This document shows, one piece after another, positions 2,509 to 53,452 of a stretch of 64,000 bases of DNA. The DNA comes from a virus: positions 80,119 to 144,118 of the IMG/VR virus record IMGVR_UViG_3300040809_000996; one strand, 5' to 3'. The notes below the pieces were generated by a model. That model made no database searches, was not told the DNA's origin, and saw nothing but the letters and a program-made list of their open reading frames with translations. The position numbers and the translations under genes were made by a program. Position 1 is the stretch's first letter. Each line of letters begins with the position of its first letter.

Positions 2509-2942
2509 GTACTTGCTAATAAATCTAATAATTTAATTACTGTTTCTAATTTTACTTGATTAATTTTAACACTTAAGGTATTTCTAAGACCAGGATGTAG
2601 CGGTCTAGGCCATTTTGATAATGATGTCCATGCATACCCATCATGTTCATCGTTTAATTGCGGAATAAATTCTTCTTCTACTAAACAGAGATAGGTATAA
2701 AAATGAAAATGATTGTCATTACTTACAAAAGTTTCTAATGGTATACTTTTACAAATACTAATAGGACCAATTTCTTCAACAATTTCTCTTTGCAAGCCAG
2801 TCCAAGGAGTTTCTTCTTTTTCGGTAATACCACCCACTAACCCCCAAAAGTTTTTATTTTTGCCTTTTGTCCTATGCAAAAATAAAAACCTTTTTTCTTT
2901 TTTACTGTAAATTAGCGCCCCACTACAAACTATTTCTTTCAT
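2505..2942 (-). CDS. Nudix hydrolase
   Basis: 145 residues with an intact Nudix box, Gx5Ex7REUxEExG, spanning about residues 38-59 (GITEKEE...REIVEEIG). Such enzymes hydrolyse nucleoside diphosphates linked to another group: NUDIX substrates include dNTPs, ADP-ribose, NAD, sugar nucleotides and capped RNA ends. Nothing in the sequence fixes the substrate. T4 has a related gene (nudE). It ends in a 4-bp convergent overlap with the oxygenase gene and lies 13 bp downstream of the gp15 stop side, on the same strand as gp15 and gp14. Confidence 0.85.
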   Translation of the reverse strand: MKEIVCSGALIYSKKEKRFLFLHRTKGKNKNFWGLVGGITEKEETPWTGLQREIVEEIGPISICKSIPLETFVSNDNHFHFYTYLCLVEEEFIPQLNDEHDGYAWTSLSKWPRPLHPGLRNTLSVKINQVKLETVIKLLDLLAST

Positions 2943-2955
2943 AAAAATAGTTATC

Positions 2956-4422
2956 TTAAAAATTTATCCTCCATGAACCATGTGGATATTCGCCTTCAAA
3001 CGATAAGATCCATTCATTGTTAATAAATTTGTATTGTATATTTGTGTTTAAATTAGTAGTATACACTATTTCATTTCCGTGTTCACTTGAATCAAATACC
3101 ACATGCCATGTATTTCCGTCCCATTCTATAATGTCATTTGCTCCTGCTATAAAATCGGTTCCGTTGTCATTTTTCCATGCATCAGCACCGTCTGTGTTAT
3201 TAGTATTTCCAATATTTGTATCTAGTAGCAATAACCTTAGTCCAACAGTTTTTAAATTAGTTGGATTAGTTTTTATGGGATCAATAATGTAGTCGATCTT
3301 TGTTTTATCACCTGTAGGACCTGATATGATAGTATCACTTGGTAAAGTATCATAATCCCAATTAACACTCATAATAAAATCATCTAATGAACTAATTGTA
3401 ATACTTCCTACAATATCTGTATCTAAATCATTCCTATACAAATGTATCTCTGAGATGCCAGGATTAAAAATATCAGGATAAGCATCTAGATATTCTTTCC
3501 AGGTAACTGATTTTGCAGAAGCAGTATTTGGTATTAATTTTAATGTATCATTCATTACAAACAAATCATAATCCTTATACGTGGTGGCAATCACTGCATC
3601 AGTATCAGGTCTTGTTGCAACTAAATTTCCGAATTCGTCTACTGTTGTTCCGTCTTCGTTAATACCTGTTTTATGGATAGCATCTGATTTATATCTACTA
3701 TCTGCGTAAGCTAATAATTCTGGCATTGTTTGATGTAAATCTACGTTACCGTAAGATTCATTAAAAATACTTGTAATAATTGTATGGATAATGCCGAGTT
3801 TTTTAACTTTAGCAGGAGGTGAAATGTATATAGGAGTACTAAATCCTAAAGTTGCTATATCTATTTCACTTTCTGTACTTGTTCCTATACTCCTACTACT
3901 GAAAGTTATATTTTCTAAATTAACTACACTTAAACTCGTCCAATCTACAAAATTATCTGTTGTTTGTATTTCTAAACTTGGATTAAACAACATAAGAATT
4001 TGCTCTAAGATTTGTAATTTTTGGTCTGTGTTTGTTGACCAAATATCTGCATTAATTGATAAATTATATGGAGTTGGCATTAATCTTTCAACTGTATAAT
4101 TTTTTCCTTGCATGTTTAAATATTCTTCGTTATTAGAATCATATGCTCGTTCTCTAATATTAACTTTACTTACAAAGCTACTATCAGATAATCTAGATCT
4201 ATCTAATTCTAAACCAGTTATGTAAACTGAAATTTTAGGCGCTCCTATAATTTTTAATTCAGAATTATCTTTAAGGATAGATCCAACTTGCCTAGCCAGA
4301 TCTCCGTAAACTACAGGAATAGTTTTTAAATTTCCTTCAATATCTTTATGACTAAAATTACTCAACATCCTAACAATTTGAGTTATGTATCTTCTTATTT
4401 GACCATCATAAAAATGTTGCAT
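2956..4422 (-). CDS. gp15: Tail sheath stabiliser and completion protein (gp15-like)
   Basis: 488 residues. The N-terminal half follows T4 gp15: FYDGQIRRYITQIVRMLSNF at the start, IPVVYGD, PKISVYITG, MPTPYNLSINADIW and QILEQILMLFNPSLEIQ near residues 130-175. In T4 gp15 caps the tail and joins it to the neck. T4 gp15 is about 270 residues, so this protein has roughly 200 extra C-terminal residues ending in a repeat-poor, beta-rich stretch with DGNTWHVVF and FINNEWILSFEG, a fibre-like domain. Ribosome-binding site AAGGTG lies just upstream. It follows gp14 by 8 bp on the minus strand. Confidence 0.85.
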   Translation of the reverse strand: MQHFYDGQIRRYITQIVRMLSNFSHKDIEGNLKTIPVVYGDLARQVGSILKDNSELKIIGAPKISVYITGLELDRSRLSDSSFVSKVNIRERAYDSNNEEYLNMQGKNYTVERLMPTPYNLSINADIWSTNTDQKLQILEQILMLFNPSLEIQTTDNFVDWTSLSVVNLENITFSSRSIGTSTESEIDIATLGFSTPIYISPPAKVKKLGIIHTIITSIFNESYGNVDLHQTMPELLAYADSRYKSDAIHKTGINEDGTTVDEFGNLVATRPDTDAVIATTYKDYDLFVMNDTLKLIPNTASAKSVTWKEYLDAYPDIFNPGISEIHLYRNDLDTDIVGSITISSLDDFIMSVNWDYDTLPSDTIISGPTGDKTKIDYIIDPIKTNPTNLKTVGLRLLLLDTNIGNTNNTDGADAWKNDNGTDFIAGANDIIEWDGNTWHVVFDSSEHGNEIVYTTNLNTNIQYKFINNEWILSFEGEYPHGSWRINF

Positions 4423-44830: not shown

Positions 44831-46354
44831 ATGATTACATGGGGAATTAGTGCTAATAGTCATGACGCTGCAATTAGTGTGCATAACAACGACAAAATAA
44901 AATTTGCAAGTCATGCAGAAAGATTTAGCCATAAAAAAAATGATGCACACTTAAATCCTAGTATTATTAATTATGCACTACAATGGGGGCAGCCTGATAG
45001 GATTGTTTGGTATGAAAAACCTTTTCTAAAAACTACAAGACAATGGTATGCAGGACAAAAAGATTTATTCAATAAGAATCGCATAAAAAAATATTTGACA
45101 CAATATGGTATAACATCGCCTATATCAACAGTAGGTCATCATCGTTCACATACAGCAGCGGGATATTATACTAGTGGATTTGATCATGCAACAATTCTAG
45201 TCATAGATGCAATAGGAGAATGGAATACACTAAGTGTGTGGGAAGGTGAGTATGATAAACTAACCTGTAAACGGACATGGAACTATCCTAACAGCATAGG
45301 TATTTGGTATAGTGCAATGACACAGCGCATAGGTCTTAAACCAAATGAGGAAGAATACATACTTATGGGTATGGCAGCATATGGAGATGCAGGTAAGTAT
45401 GGAGAAACAATATTAAACGATTTTTGGGAACAATTTCCTAACCATTTAAACTTTTTTAATCGCCTTCCTAACTTCCAGCTAAAGCACAATCTACATAGGG
45501 GATGCATGTGGTGGGAACCTACTAAGATTGCATTTAATATCTTAGACGATAAACAAGAATTTACACAATGGGCGTATGACGTAGCAGCAGGAACGCAATG
45601 GGCATATGAGCATATATTAACTAAGATAAGTAAGGCTGTAGCTAGGACATATGCTAGCAGTAACCTAGTGTTTATGGGTGGTTGTGCATTGAATTGCAGT
45701 GCTAACAGCAAGATAGTTGAACACTGGAATGGTGAAGGTAACATTTGGATAATGCCTAATCCGGGCGATGCAGGCAGTTGCATAGGAGCAGTGCTTGCAC
45801 ATAGAGGCACACATATAGAATGGCCTGGACCGTATCTGGGTTATGATATAGAAGGAGAATATCCAGTAGATGAAATCATTACAGAACTTATGCAAACAGG
45901 TATTGCAGGGGTTGCGTCAGGAAGAGCCGAGTTCGGTCCTCGTAGCCTTGGCGCTCGCAGCCTTCTTGCTGACCCTCAGCGTATGGATATTAAAGATAAA
46001 GTCAATGCCATTAAACGTAGACAGAAGTTCCGTCCCTTCGCACCTGCAGTCCTTGCAGAACACGCATCCAGTTTATTTGAGCCGCCCTTCGGACGTTATA
46101 TGCAGTACACCGCACGTTGTCGCTATCCTGAAAGATACCCTGCAATTGTCCACGCAGACGGAACCAGCAGAGTTCAAACAGTTACAAAGCAAGATCACCC
46201 AGGTTTTAGAGCGTTGTTGGAAAGATGGTACGAACTAACAGGCTGTCCTATGTTGTTAAACACTAGTCTCAATATAAAAGGCAAACCGATAGTAAACACA
46301 TTGACAGATGCACAAGAATTTAGTAAACTATACAATGTAAAGGTATTTTCATGA
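44831..46354 (+). CDS. Carbamoyltransferase (NodU/CmcH family)
   Basis: 507 residues. N-terminal Kae1/TsaD-like domain: WGISANSHDAAIS, GHHRSHTAAGYYTSGFDHATILVIDAIGEWNT, GGCALNC. C-terminal YrdC-like region: GRAEFGPRSLGARSLLADP and TGCPMLLNTSLNIKGKPIV, the family's active-site blocks. It transfers a carbamoyl group to a hydroxyl of a sugar or antibiotic-like acceptor. Genes of this type are known in marine cyanophages. Base composition is higher in GC than the genes before it. Confidence 0.9.
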   Translation: MITWGISANSHDAAISVHNNDKIKFASHAERFSHKKNDAHLNPSIINYALQWGQPDRIVWYEKPFLKTTRQWYAGQKDLFNKNRIKKYLTQYGITSPISTVGHHRSHTAAGYYTSGFDHATILVIDAIGEWNTLSVWEGEYDKLTCKRTWNYPNSIGIWYSAMTQRIGLKPNEEEYILMGMAAYGDAGKYGETILNDFWEQFPNHLNFFNRLPNFQLKHNLHRGCMWWEPTKIAFNILDDKQEFTQWAYDVAAGTQWAYEHILTKISKAVARTYASSNLVFMGGCALNCSANSKIVEHWNGEGNIWIMPNPGDAGSCIGAVLAHRGTHIEWPGPYLGYDIEGEYPVDEIITELMQTGIAGVASGRAEFGPRSLGARSLLADPQRMDIKDKVNAIKRRQKFRPFAPAVLAEHASSLFEPPFGRYMQYTARCRYPERYPAIVHADGTSRVQTVTKQDHPGFRALLERWYELTGCPMLLNTSLNIKGKPIVNTLTDAQEFSKLYNVKVFS

Positions 46355-48186: not shown

Positions 48187-49020
48187 ATGGCGTGTGGATG
48201 CGGACGAAGTCCAGATTTTTGTAGAGGATGGCATGCTTTATCAGAAGCAGAATGGCAAGCAGAACTATTAATACTGCAAGCAGAACAAGTTGCGGAAAAA
48301 CCAAAAAACGATAAACATGTTGTAATGGTTAGAGAAGTACAGCACTATACTGATACACTGTTTAGATTTGTTACAGACAAACCAGTAGACTACACATTTA
48401 AAGCAGGTGAGTTTGTAATGATCGGGCTTGGTGATAAGGTACGCAGAGCGTATTCAATTACCAGTTCTCCTGAAGATAATCATTTAGAATTTTATTCGAT
48501 CAAGGTGCCTGACGGAGCACTTACTTCAAGGCTAAAAAATATTCAGCCTGGTGATACAGTTGAAGTAGGCGCTAAGGCAACAGGCACCCTGTTATTAGAA
48601 AACCTAAAGCCAGGTCGCAGGCTTTGGTTACTTGCAACAGGAACAGGTATTGCACCTTTTATGAGCTTAGTAAGACAGAAGGATATTTTCAATGTTTTCG
48701 CAGAAGTTAATGTAGCATGGAGTGTAAGAGAGCAAGACGAGCTTAAAGCATATAGGGCAGACCTAACAGGATACGATCTAAATTTATTTCCTATTGTAAC
48801 TAGAGATGAATTGTATATTGGATATCAGAAACGTATTACAGAACTTATCAATGATAAGGTATTACTAGGAGAAATGGATCCTCAACAAGATCGTGTAATG
48901 CTTTGCGGTAGTATGGAGTTTAATGAAGACTTAAAACGTATACTTGACGCAAATAGATTTGCAGAAGGTAATACAGGAACTCCTGGAGATTATGTAGTAG
49001 AGAAAGCCTTTGTAGGCTAA
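48187..49020 (+). CDS. Ferredoxin-NADP reductase-like protein with CDGSH-like N-terminus
   Basis: 277 residues. The first 16 carry C3-x-C5-x2-S8-P9-x2-C12-x-G14-x-H16, close to the CDGSH [2Fe-2S] pattern but two residues shorter between the second and third Cys. Residues 40-277 form an FNR: RAYSITSS (FAD-binding, 87-94), TGTGIAPF (NADP-binding, 151-158), CGSMEF near 240 and terminal VEKAFVG. It would move electrons between NADPH, FAD and a cluster or ferredoxin; in a marine phage it could feed the ribonucleotide reductase or oxygenases. AAGGAG precedes the ATG. Confidence 0.8.
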   Translation: MACGCGRSPDFCRGWHALSEAEWQAELLILQAEQVAEKPKNDKHVVMVREVQHYTDTLFRFVTDKPVDYTFKAGEFVMIGLGDKVRRAYSITSSPEDNHLEFYSIKVPDGALTSRLKNIQPGDTVEVGAKATGTLLLENLKPGRRLWLLATGTGIAPFMSLVRQKDIFNVFAEVNVAWSVREQDELKAYRADLTGYDLNLFPIVTRDELYIGYQKRITELINDKVLLGEMDPQQDRVMLCGSMEFNEDLKRILDANRFAEGNTGTPGDYVVEKAFVG

Positions 49021-49085: not shown

Positions 49086-50729
49086 ATGGCAAACACAGAT
49101 TTAGATAATATAGAAAGGCTCATGGGTCGCTTTAAAAGACCCGTACCCGAAGGCGAAGAATACAAGCTAAGGCTAGTAGAAGAATTCGAACTAATCCTCA
49201 ATCAACGCTTCACAGATTACTTCCTCCAAATATGTGATATAATAGATCTCACAGACGATCTTACCCACATGACACGTGGCAGCGCAGGCTCTAGCCTCAT
49301 CTGTTACCTACTTGGTATTACAGATGTTGATCCTGTACTGTGGCGTATACCAGTTGCACGTTTTATGAATCCAATGCGTGATGACTTGCCTGATGTTGAC
49401 ATAGACTTTGAGCATCACAGGCAGAATGAAGTTATGCAGCGGATATTTAAAAAATGGCCTGGTAAGACTGCACGTTTAAGCAACTACGTTACATATAAAG
49501 AAAAGAGCGCACGTAGAGAAGCAGCAAAGCGTTTGGGTGCTACAGGAGCTTTAAAGCGTGGATTTACGTATGAATCTGCGGGTGTGGATCCTAAGGAAGC
49601 CAAACGTATAGAACGCAAGCTCTTGGGCAAGAAGCGTTGTATAAGCAAGCACTGTGGCGGTGTAGTAATGTTTACACGCCAGCTACCCAAAAGTCTTATA
49701 TCAGCAGATAATCAAATACTGCTGGACAAATATGAAGTAGAAGACCTAGAGCACCTTAAGGTAGATATCCTAGCTAATCGTGGACTGTCGCAACTGCTAG
49801 AAATAGATCCAGATACAGCACTTGCAGACTATCCACGCACGGATCCTGCTACTAGTGAACTGTTGTGCAGGGGAGATGTGCTGGGTGTTACACAAGGCGA
49901 GTCTCCTGCGATGCGTAGGTTATTCCGTGCGCTACAACCGCAGAGCGTGGAGGATTGTGTGTTTGCTACTGCACTGATACGTCCAGTAGCACTATCAGGT
50001 AGGCAGAAGGCTGCTATGTTCCACGACTGGAGCAGAGAAGCAGTACAGGACACAATAGTGTTTGAGGATGATGCTATTGAGATTATCAGTGATATAATAG
50101 ATGTAGACAACTACGAAGCAGACATGTATCGCCGTGCGTTTGCAAAGAAGAACGATTCAAGGATACTTGAATTTATGCAACGGATAGGAGATCATCCACG
50201 CAAGCAAGAAGCTATTACAGCACTGCAAGAGCTAAGTGGCTTTGGATTGTGCAGGGCGCATGCTGTTAACCTAGGCCGGCTTATCTGGGCACTGGCATAT
50301 CAGAAAGCACATAACAAACGCAAGTTCTGGGCAGCATGTCTAAAGCACTGTCAAGGTAGTTATAGGCGCTGGGTATACAACTGTGAAGCACACAGGGTGA
50401 AAGTGCCTGCAGAACCGGGCTGGTGGCACAAGGGATTTCCGGACGGGCTTGGTGTACGACAGCAGTGGCTTGACCGTGTAGAGTTTGCAGGTATTGTAGC
50501 TAACGGTCGTGCATTCCGTGGTACTAACGGACGCTGGGTAACATTCTTAACACTAGGCACAGGCTATGGCGAATACATAGACGTTACAGTGCAAAGACCA
50601 GTAGCATATAGAGATTATGACATCGTATATGGTCAAGGTCGCATCCGCACACAGGACAGATCAGATTATATACATACAGTAGATACCAAGTGTTACACTT
50701 TTAAACAATGGGGTGAGATAAATAAATGA
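49086..50729 (+). CDS. DnaE-like family C polymerase core without PHP domain
   Basis: 547 residues. RGSAGSSLICYLLGI, LPDVDIDFE (first two catalytic Asp), ISKHCGGVVMF, LEHLKVDILANRGLSQL (third Asp), GVTQGESPAMRRLFRALQPQSVEDCVFATALIRP, MYRRAFAKK and GFGLCRAHAVNLGRLIWALAYQKAH follow the palm, fingers and tail blocks of DNA polymerase III alpha in order. The N-terminal PHP domain is absent; the C-terminal 130 residues resemble an OB-fold (GRWVTFLTL). A T4-type family B polymerase would normally replicate this genome. Ends in a 4-bp overlap with the channel-like gene. Confidence 0.85.
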   Translation: MANTDLDNIERLMGRFKRPVPEGEEYKLRLVEEFELILNQRFTDYFLQICDIIDLTDDLTHMTRGSAGSSLICYLLGITDVDPVLWRIPVARFMNPMRDDLPDVDIDFEHHRQNEVMQRIFKKWPGKTARLSNYVTYKEKSARREAAKRLGATGALKRGFTYESAGVDPKEAKRIERKLLGKKRCISKHCGGVVMFTRQLPKSLISADNQILLDKYEVEDLEHLKVDILANRGLSQLLEIDPDTALADYPRTDPATSELLCRGDVLGVTQGESPAMRRLFRALQPQSVEDCVFATALIRPVALSGRQKAAMFHDWSREAVQDTIVFEDDAIEIISDIIDVDNYEADMYRRAFAKKNDSRILEFMQRIGDHPRKQEAITALQELSGFGLCRAHAVNLGRLIWALAYQKAHNKRKFWAACLKHCQGSYRRWVYNCEAHRVKVPAEPGWWHKGFPDGLGVRQQWLDRVEFAGIVANGRAFRGTNGRWVTFLTLGTGYGEYIDVTVQRPVAYRDYDIVYGQGRIRTQDRSDYIHTVDTKCYTFKQWGEINK

Positions 50730-51202
50730 TGAATGAACATGTACAAACTAGACTTAAATGGTATACGGTATTCTGTGTAAGTGTATTAGTGATGTATCTC
50801 AGCTGGACGTTTGGATTCCTGGACAGCCTATACAAGAGTGACATTACTAAGATTAGCTGGGTTATTATAGGATTATATTTCTTATTCTCTCTGAGACTAG
50901 GCTACAGATTACACCGATTTGACCGTGATAAAGACAGATACACTTTTAGCACCAATCCAGAATGGTTCGCCGGTGAGACCATGCTGAGCTTAGGAATGAT
51001 AGGAACTGTGGTAGGATTTATCTACATGCTAACCACAGTGTTTATAGATTTAAATGTAGAAGATACCGCAAGTGTACAGGAAGCACTGGGTATGATGGCT
51101 ACAGGAATGGGAACTGCTCTATGGACTACACTGGTTGGCTTAATTGCGAGTGTGCTGTTAAAGTTACAACTGGTGTTAGTGGATGAGCACGTAGATGGAT
51201 AG
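50726..51202 (+). CDS. MotA/TolQ/ExbB-like membrane protein
   Basis: 158 residues with four predicted helices (about 12-31, 42-57, 85-104, 120-142). The third has GMIGTVVGFIY and the fourth GMGTALWTTLVGLIAS, the conserved GTV-x-G and T-rich segments that line the proton path in ExbB, TolQ and MotA. The loop has a basic stretch (HRFDRDKDR). Such proteins form a pentamer around two ExbD/MotB-like chains. It overlaps the DnaE-like gene by 4 bp and its partner by 8 bp. Confidence 0.72.
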   Translation: MMNEHVQTRLKWYTVFCVSVLVMYLSWTFGFLDSLYKSDITKISWVIIGLYFLFSLRLGYRLHRFDRDKDRYTFSTNPEWFAGETMLSLGMIGTVVGFIYMLTTVFIDLNVEDTASVQEALGMMATGMGTALWTTLVGLIASVLLKLQLVLVDEHVDG

Positions 51203-51851
51203 ACGTTACGTATCAAATCTTGCATTTATAGATTTATTATTCAATTTAATACTTGGTTTTGTGATGCTGTTCCTAATCAGCTTCTTGCTGATTAATAATC
51301 CTGCCAAAACATCTGAAATAGAATACAAAGCAGAGATTATGATTGTAATGAGCTGGCAGGACGATCACGAAGGAGATATTGACCTTTGGGTAGAGACTCC
51401 TAACGGCAAAGTCAGCTACATAAACCCTGTTGCAGGCCATGCACACCTAGACAAGGACGATTTAGGTGTAAGAAATGATTATTATACTTTACCAAATGGC
51501 GAGGTAGAAAAGATCTATCTTAACAGAGAAATAGTTACCCTTAGAGCACTGCAACCAGGCGACTATGTAGTCAATGCCCATTATTATACTACTCCAGGCA
51601 TAGGTTCTGAACAATATGGAACTCGTATTCCTGCAGAAGTAAAAATAGAAGTTTTAAGATTAAACCCGTTCCAAATTATATTTTCAGATGGTAAAACTCT
51701 AGATGCAAAAGGACAAGAAGAAACATTTGTTAGATTTACACTTGATGCAGAAGGCACTGCTACTAAAATAAACAGACTACCTAAACGATTAGTGCAAGCA
51801 CAGGTAGGCACAACAACAACATCAAGCGGTAGTCGTTCAGGAGGCTTTTAA
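51195..51851 (+). CDS. ExbD/TolR/MotB-like single-span protein with periplasmic domain
   Basis: 218 residues. One N-terminal helix FIDLLFNLILGFVMLFLISFLL (about 11-32) carries Asp13 at the position of the essential proton-binding Asp of ExbD/TolR/MotB. The outer part, MSWQDDHEGDIDLWVETPNGKVSYINP, LRALQPGDYVVNAHYY and ITTTSSGSRSGGF at the end, is beta-rich and resembles DUF2135/YfaP-type domains rather than the ExbD or OmpA fold. With 50726-51202 it makes a two-component stator-like pair. Confidence 0.7.
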   Translation: MDRRYVSNLAFIDLLFNLILGFVMLFLISFLLINNPAKTSEIEYKAEIMIVMSWQDDHEGDIDLWVETPNGKVSYINPVAGHAHLDKDDLGVRNDYYTLPNGEVEKIYLNREIVTLRALQPGDYVVNAHYYTTPGIGSEQYGTRIPAEVKIEVLRLNPFQIIFSDGKTLDAKGQEETFVRFTLDAEGTATKINRLPKRLVQAQVGTTTTSSGSRSGGF

Positions 51852-52357
51852 TGACCTATTTATTATTGATTGCAATAGTTGTTGTGCTGCTGATCCTATA
51901 CGCTATTATCAGCACTAGAAGCAGCATACATCTTTATTATATAATTCCTGTTTCACTTGCTTGTGCGATTGGATTATATACTTTTTATGGCAGCATACTG
52001 GGATATCCTACCACACGTTATCTACAATCAAAGTTTGTACTCTTGAGTTATGCTAATTCCGACGATAGATTATTCATGTGGGTAATACACGACAACGATA
52101 CTGAACCTAGAGCTTACTCATTACCGTACACAGAAGAACAGCATGCACAGCTAGAAGCAGCAATGCAGAAGGCACGCAATGGAGTTTGGGTAGAAGGAAA
52201 CTTTAATCAAACATCCGAGGATGACGAAGGCATAGGAGATCTAGGCGATCAGTCAGGTGGTTTAGGTACGAATAAATCCCAAGGCGGAGATATGTTTGAA
52301 CTGTATGACATTGACTCTACAAGATTGCTTCCTCCAAAACAAGAACGACCTAACTAA
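51851..52357 (+). CDS. Third membrane protein of the channel-like module
   Basis: 168 residues with two helices (about 2-19 and 31-48) and a soluble part with LFMWVIHDNDTEPRAYSLPYTEEQHAQLEAAMQKARNG. The tail is acidic and Gly-rich (SEDDEGIGDLGDQSGGLG). No family recognised. It shares one base with the ExbD-like gene (TAATG), so the three are made together. Its 3' end overlaps the convergent oxygenase gene by 8 bp. Confidence 0.65.
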   Translation: MTYLLLIAIVVVLLILYAIISTRSSIHLYYIIPVSLACAIGLYTFYGSILGYPTTRYLQSKFVLLSYANSDDRLFMWVIHDNDTEPRAYSLPYTEEQHAQLEAAMQKARNGVWVEGNFNQTSEDDEGIGDLGDQSGGLGTNKSQGGDMFELYDIDSTRLLPPKQERPN

Positions 52358-52859
52358 ACAGCTTAGATCGCATTCCCCATGTGGTTAGAACACGGTGTTC
52401 TAACCTTTCATTTCGACCTATGTTAATTGCATAGTAGTCTTCAACTGGCATCTGTATACCCGTTCCAGGTTTTAAATCATAATCACCCTTAACGGTTTCT
52501 AATTTAAAATCATATTCTGTATCTAAATTAATAACTATTGTCCTTGTTCGGACACTGTGTGTTTCCTTATTGGCTATTACATTATCCGTGTGCCAAGAAT
52601 AAAAACCTCCTGCTGAAAATTTGTGTATCCTCCAAGGACGGAAAATCCAATCCACAGGTAATAGATGAGTACTTGATATTTTTTTCCTTAACAGTCTCCA
52701 TACCCAATCTGAATAATACAAACAACAACGATCGGTGCGCACAGTGTAATTATAACGTTCCGACCAACCCGAGTAATCTCTACTGGAATAACAGTTTATA
52801 TCTGCGGTAATTTTTTGTATAGTATCGTAGGAGAAAAAATCTATAACGGAATAAAACAT
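52350..52859 (-). CDS. 2OG-Fe(II) oxygenase
   Basis: 169 residues. WRIHKFSAGGFYSWHTDNV supplies the HxD iron ligands (HTD, near residue 90), RTIVINLD the following strand, and LEHRVL the distal His with the neighbouring Arg for 2-oxoglutarate. Small prolyl-hydroxylase-like enzymes of this sort are abundant in marine T4-like phages; the target is unknown. Its ATG overlaps the stop codon of the SGNH gene (TAATG). Confidence 0.82.
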   Translation of the reverse strand: MFYSVIDFFSYDTIQKITADINCYSSRDYSGWSERYNYTVRTDRCCLYYSDWVWRLLRKKISSTHLLPVDWIFRPWRIHKFSAGGFYSWHTDNVIANKETHSVRTRTIVINLDTEYDFKLETVKGDYDLKPGTGIQMPVEDYYAINIGRNERLEHRVLTTWGMRSKLFS

Positions 52860-53452
52860 TATAACCGTTCTTTTAACTGTGCAGCTATATACCTGTGTGC
52901 TTCTGTTCCTACATGTACGTTATCTAGCCCAACAGGAAATCGCTCTCGTAGTTGATCTAAATCTATCGGTAACATGGGAAATCCAAACTGTATGCCCGAA
53001 GGACCAGGCTCTAAGAATGTACACGTGGTTACTGTTTTAGAAATTAATCTCCTAGCTTCTTCTACAATTATTCGATACATGAATTGTGCATGGTAATCAT
53101 CGTGGAAGTACTTGTACCATGTTTCGATCATGTTTTTCCGCTTTGGAAATTCTTGAAACCAAGGACCTATCTGGACGACGTCTGATTCACGAATGATTGA
53201 CCATCTATCAAGATAAGACCAAAACACATATACAAGATCGCCAGGTTTAAATTCTGTTCGAGTTATTTGATGTAGTATTTCTAAATTGCTAGCACCAGGC
53301 ACTGCAAGATTAACCACAGGTCTATTTAACAGTCTTCCGAGCACTGCCGGCCAAGCGTAGCGACTAGGTTGATCCCCACGCCTAGCAGTAACGCAATCAG
53401 GAGAACCTTGACCAAATGTGTTTGAACATCCAAATGCGATTATACGTGACAT
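52859..53452 (-). CDS. SGNH/GDSL-type hydrolase-like protein
   Basis: 197 residues. GCSNTFG near residue 8 fits block I (nucleophile Ser9), NLAVPGASN block II, SYLD block III and DNVHVGTEAHRYIA block V (DxxH catalytic pair). Family members are esterases or lipases acting on acyl or acetyl groups, often on polysaccharides. No signal peptide, so a cytoplasmic or virion role is more likely. A late-type box ends 4 nt before the ATG and there is no ribosome-binding site. Confidence 0.75.
   Translation of the reverse strand: MSRIIAFGCSNTFGQGSPDCVTARRGDQPSRYAWPAVLGRLLNRPVVNLAVPGASNLEILHQITRTEFKPGDLVYVFWSYLDRWSIIRESDVVQIGPWFQEFPKRKNMIETWYKYFHDDYHAQFMYRIIVEEARRLISKTVTTCTFLEPGPSGIQFGFPMLPIDLDQLRERFPVGLDNVHVGTEAHRYIAAQLKERL

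Follow-up and report, generated by a model that had tools for sequence, protein, structure and literature searches.

What would a virus do with three genes that look like the parts of an ion-driven motor? Motors of the 5:2 type power flagella, gliding, nutrient uptake, the upkeep of the outer membrane, and defence against phages. The window, by which we mean the stretch of 64,000 nucleotides that we analyzed, is the final 64 kb of a 144,118-base virus contig from IMG/VR, and the virus is a marine phage. On balance, we believe that three adjacent genes within it, which we will call A, B, and C, encode a single inner-membrane machine of the 5:2 superfamily, which would be made with the replication proteins and would act on the host's envelope. 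We have no data on complex formation, proton flow, or rotation.

A preliminary description of the window reported three overlapping genes at 50726–52357, and the list of open reading frames has them there on the + strand: A (50726–51202), B (51195–51851), and C (51851–52357). They follow a gene for a DNA polymerase III alpha-like protein (49086–50729, + strand; Pfam DNA_pol3_alpha, E = 8.2e-41), which shares 4 bp (ATGA) with the start of A. A and B overlap by 8 bp, and B and C overlap by 1 bp. Because of these successive overlaps, A-B-C are probably on the transcript of the polymerase gene. Furthermore, dN/dS relative to a close marine relative (L012) is 0.08 for A, 0.10 for B, and 0.14 for C, which indicates purifying selection, so these are real coding genes. 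The observation of three overlapping genes is confirmed.

A DnaB gene is also nearby. The product of the polymerase gene is compact, with 547 amino acids and only the NTPase/finger parts, and is far shorter than bacterial alpha subunits. Between the DnaB-like and polymerase genes is an FAD/NAD-binding reductase (48187–49020, + strand) that is retained in the marine relatives L010–L012. At 44831–46354 (+ strand), we noticed a 507-amino-acid relative of carbamoyltransferases of the novobiocin, TobZ type (E = 3e-50 versus solved structures), which possibly has a role in nucleotide or DNA modification. On the 3' side of the trio are two minus-strand genes (52350–53452), with a weak match to 2OG-Fe(II) oxygenases and a GDSL/SGNH hydrolase. 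The window also contains a gene for a contractile tail sheath.

Gene A encodes a protein of 158 amino acids with four hydrophobic segments and short loops, and it ends a few residues past helix 4. (By a simple count, four such segments are also present in 21 of 27 non-redundant relatives of A.) A matches Pfam's MotA_ExbB family (PF01618) with E = 2.1e-6 and 27.9 bits, which is above the curated cut-off of 22.9 bits, and 24 of 28 relatives match this family at E ≤ 0.01. Among solved chains, a profile of the A family matches ZorA (E = 3e-7), MotA (E = 7e-6), and TolQ (E = 2e-4); with hhalign, A matches TolQ (E = 2e-5) and ExbB (E = 2e-4). These sequence comparisons establish that A is homologous to the proton-channel wheel subunits MotA, TolQ, and ExbB, as the preliminary description had proposed from its helices and motifs. 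A is the only gene of the MotA_ExbB type in the entire virus record.

The conserved positions of A include Asp39, in the loop that joins helices 1 and 2 (50840–50842, + strand), which is nearly invariant (Asp in 67 of 71 rows of the alignment). Helix 3 has the motif G-x-x-G-T-V-x-G (G90 to G97; 50993–51016, + strand), in which G93 is invariant, and helix 4 has T-T-x-x-G (T134 to G138; 51125–51139, + strand). In alignments with ExbB, MotA, and TolQ, T135 corresponds to their helix Thr, three residues ahead of the Gly, and every one of the 71 rows has Thr or Ser there. The conservation that was asked of the helix-4 Thr is therefore seen, but the Thr of the GTV motif is not strictly conserved: Asn stands in place of T94 in 11 of 26 phage rows, all from one clade. 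At the position that aligns with T94, the residue in E. coli MotA is Ala.

Gene B encodes a protein of 218 amino acids with a single membrane helix (residues 3–33), as previously suggested. Within the helix, Asp13 (51231–51233, + strand) is the candidate proton-binding residue. The helix aligns with that of MotB, with Asp13 on Asp32 (E = 0.029; the match is short, hence the weak E-value), and with that of TolR, with Asp13 on its Asp. These short matches are weak by themselves, but the position of the residue and the identity of the partner agree with them. Asp13 is present in 25 of 26 phage rows, and in the exception (L045) the Asp is shifted within the same helix. Among host rows, 35 of 45 have Asp13, and in the other ten, which form one clade, an Asp precedes this position by four residues. 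(The shifted residues were placed by eye.) Overall, Asp13 is nearly invariant.

Beyond the helix, B has an external domain (residues 46–193; 51330–51773, + strand), for which AlphaFold2 predicts a beta-sandwich (pLDDT 79.5). W54, D61, D63, D88, and G91 in this head are invariant across 71 rows. With hhalign, the head matches residues 142–215 of E. coli YfaP, which belong to DUF2135 (E = 8.8e-5), and it also matches DUF2135-like stretches in proteins of about 1,000 amino acids. Yet none of 28 members of the B family is above the cut-off for DUF2135 in Pfam (PF09906), and just one member matches it, at E = 0.08. We therefore consider the head to be related to DUF2135 without being a formal member. 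No Pfam family matches the head above its cut-off, including OmpA-like families; none of the 28 members match ExbD/TolR (PF02472) at E ≤ 0.1; and there is no meaningful alignment of the head to ExbD. This is consistent with the earlier remark that the domain does not resemble those of ExbD, TolR, or MotB. A Foldseek search with the model found only weak matches in PDB (DUF4425, E = 4e-3), and nothing informative among viruses. Calcium binding by B, drawn from relatives of this kind, is only a guess.

Gene C encodes a protein of 168 amino acids with two helices, a small alpha/beta domain (predicted by AlphaFold2 with low confidence), and an acidic tail: after helix 2, there are 10 Lys/Arg versus 20 Asp/Glu. 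The loop between the helices is short and contains Lys/Arg and no acidic residues, from which we infer that both ends of C are probably periplasmic. We found no match for C in Pfam, PHROG, NCBIfam, PADLOC, or PDB, no match to a nuclease, and no similarity to TolA. Thus, C is still a two-helix protein with an acidic tail and no known family, as first described.

How might these proteins work together? From homology, we propose that five A subunits surround the helices of two B subunits, and that protons flowing past Asp13 of B and Thr135 of A would turn or pull B. The periplasmic head of B, a DUF2135-like beta-sandwich, would transmit force to a target in the envelope that is not bound via a known peptidoglycan domain. 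C would be held by its two helices, with its small domain and acidic tail in the periplasm; as an obligate third subunit, it may couple, gate, or anchor the head of B. The phage would make the trio alongside its replication proteins, and the trio would act on the host's envelope during infection. That the trio is a motor seems likely, with its activity and assembly inferred from homology to known motors and not from experiments. As caveats, a host clade of ten rows has the shifted Asp, a phage clade lacks the Thr of helix 3, and A from phages has almost no cytoplasmic part.

The same genes are found in other phages. A tblastn search for B yielded 27 records, from Rhizobium and Sinorhizobium phages that are of several unrelated kinds (another query yielded the same number). 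Isolated phages with the trio are 16-3, AP-16-3, RL2RES, and N34; in 16-3, its genes are p038, p040, and p042. The window's A or C alone gave no phage match with tblastn because they are too divergent. Our searches for related loci used sub-alignments of B; the whole-B alignment is short on conserved stretches. In all 47 loci, whether from phages, prophage-like regions, or Azospirillum, the order is A-B-C, and 27 of these loci are non-redundant at 85%. So the three-gene order does recur, including in marine phages. In some temperate phages, the trio is interrupted by small additional ORFs or by genes for homing endonucleases.

In lytic lineages (the window, N34, RL2RES, N3_13, and I1_18), the trio lies amid genes for replication, nucleotide metabolism, or transcription. 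Neighbors include gyrase, a sigma factor, and repair nucleases (L002 and L007), Pol I and an exonuclease (L003), and a nearby DnaB (L004). In marine loci L031–L033, the trio is between a gene that clusters with phage ribonucleotide reductase and an SbmA/BacA transporter. These locations suggest early or middle expression, and work on the envelope during infection rather than lysis; the trio is probably expressed with the replication genes. Both statements rest on gene position alone, without expression data. The preliminary description had listed lysis among the possible uses of a stator-like pair, and we reject a lysis module because, in lytic phages, the trio sits with replication genes.

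Some of the neighbors are of interest in themselves. The SbmA/BacA peptide transporter directly 3' of C (E = 3.5e-123; L031 5007–5972, also in L032 and L033) is unusual cargo for a phage. In L031, a product with an apparent signal peptide (2891–3541) overlaps the start of A; it appears ClpP-like by eye only, and it has no match in Pfam or PDB. In phages like 16-3, a secreted-looking Trypsin_2 peptidase is just upstream of A (L001 6247–7146, L005 4138–4848, and L006 4598–5245), and a calcineurin-like phosphoesterase recurs after C. The Trypsin_2 family is a neighbor in 27 loci, mostly from one lineage. We considered that a periplasmic protease might be a core partner of the trio, but besides being mostly limited to that lineage, the gene is missing from the window's phage record and is not a shared neighbor in hosts, so we rejected this idea.

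The trio is also found in bacteria. We searched a sample of 385 genomes from the class of an Ensifer genome, that is, from the Alphaproteobacteria, and found relatives of B in 67 of them (about one in six), with about 60 at E below 1e-30. In a sample from the phylum, 32 of 398 genomes had relatives of B, about 16 of them strong. (The weaker host matches are to DUF2135-like domains of other proteins.) All three genes are present in each of 33 short host loci that we checked, although C is out of order in one (L074). In 20 longer chromosome regions, A and C are present in all 20, and B was called in 18 by a crude gene picker. No further neighbor is conserved across lineages in these chromosome regions. 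In three small genomes, the trio adjoins the suf operon. Azospirillum chromids carry the trio as well; each of the Azospirillum megaplasmid records has two places that match B, of which one was characterized (L037, L038). All eight of the trio-bearing host genomes that we checked have a canonical ExbD/TolR elsewhere, so the trio is an extra system, and for these eight genomes we can exclude that it is the host's own Tol or Ton system. Although the trio had been presented as belonging to a phage, it is a bacterial system that phages also carry.

In a tree of A and B, the labels of phage and host need to change just four times, and the phage clades are deep, so phages have kept their copies for a long time. 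The nearest host rows to the window's proteins are from alphaproteobacteria with small genomes (41% identity). Recent pick-up from a host is not supported by the tree, although long branches limit its detail. Phages have a shorter A, with 132–180 amino acids, while the A proteins of hosts are mostly longer (173–370). As part of our best explanation, we take A-B-C to be an alphaproteobacterial operon that stands alone and that several phage lineages have long kept.

The main rival to envelope work is exclusion of superinfecting phages, as in Zorya: the motor would sense damage to the envelope by a rival and block entry of its DNA, and the effector would be C or a protein encoded elsewhere. ZorA is among the best solved relatives of the wheel, there are weak matches to ZorA in PADLOC, and the trio is in both temperate and lytic phages and is scattered among hosts (67 of 385). 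However, the ZorA tail and the peptidoglycan-binding head are missing, no nuclease partner adjoins the trio in the window or in hosts, and C does not match any nuclease. We consider exclusion to be unlikely, though it deserves to be kept in mind. We also doubt that the trio is a host system for envelope maintenance, copied without any phage-specific change so as to prolong the host's life. Many chromosomes do carry the bacterial operon, but the phages' copies form old separate clades with a shortened A, which implies phage-specific selection and not recent borrowing. Finally, it is very improbable that the trio is a mere proton leak, which would depolarize the membrane to time lysis or shut off the host: A is cut down to its membrane core, and lysozyme genes occur about 3–5 kb upstream in a few temperate phages, but lytic phages group the trio with replication genes instead of lysis genes, both the head of B and the C protein show conservation and purifying selection, and host chromosomes keep the trio.

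If the trio is a motor that stands alone, with a head of a new kind and a third subunit that is always present, it would add an unstudied branch to the 5:2 motors, one that is present in about one in six of the sampled alphaproteobacterial genomes and is also kept by phages. Because 16-3, AP-16-3, RL2RES, and N34 have been isolated, laboratory experiments on how a virus uses a proton motor are already possible.

How does the trio compare to known motors? We did not find a description of it in the literature that we searched (open-access PMC papers only). As in Zorya, A has the wheel core of ZorA. In contrast to Zorya, A lacks the long tail, which is required in Zorya (PMC11890865); B has no peptidoglycan-binding ZorB head and no match in PADLOC; and C, rather than a gene for a ZorC/D/E nuclease, adjoins A and B. 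(In the window, the trio is flanked by the polymerase gene and the weak 2OG-oxygenase match, with no nuclease effector.) So we rejected membership in Zorya. Like TolQR-TolA and ExbBD-TonB, the trio is a three-gene inner-membrane set, and the wheel helices align, with the GTV and the helix Thr. But A differs in its four helices and in its near lack of a cytoplasmic domain, the head of B is not that of ExbD or TolR, and C, with its two helices, is unlike the long single-span couplers TonB and TolA. MotAB shares the four-helix A and a B helix that aligns with that of MotB, but the trio lacks the torque-generating cytoplasmic domain and the OmpA-like head and has the extra gene C. The head of B resembles YfaP and other DUF2135-like stretches, but B has this domain behind a membrane helix of the motor type and beside a wheel gene, and its score is below Pfam's cut-off. 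A partner with one N-terminal, Asp-bearing helix is a criterion for 5:2 motors, and B meets it. Across the superfamily, relatives of MotAB have varied DUF attachments (PMC12505986, a 2025 study). On the features that we tested, membership in Zorya, Ton, Tol, or Mot fails, although the trio working like any of them is not excluded. The third subunit and the head match no named motor family: the trio looks like a version of the 5:2 ion motors with three subunits, with the A5B2 stoichiometry and ion flow being inferences from sequence. We regard a larger claim as slightly less likely than not: that this is an undescribed class of proton-driven 5:2 motors from Alphaproteobacteria, with an obligate third subunit and a DUF2135-like head, which several phage lineages use as an energized envelope machine during infection, and that it would be the first virus-encoded rotary motor of the superfamily.
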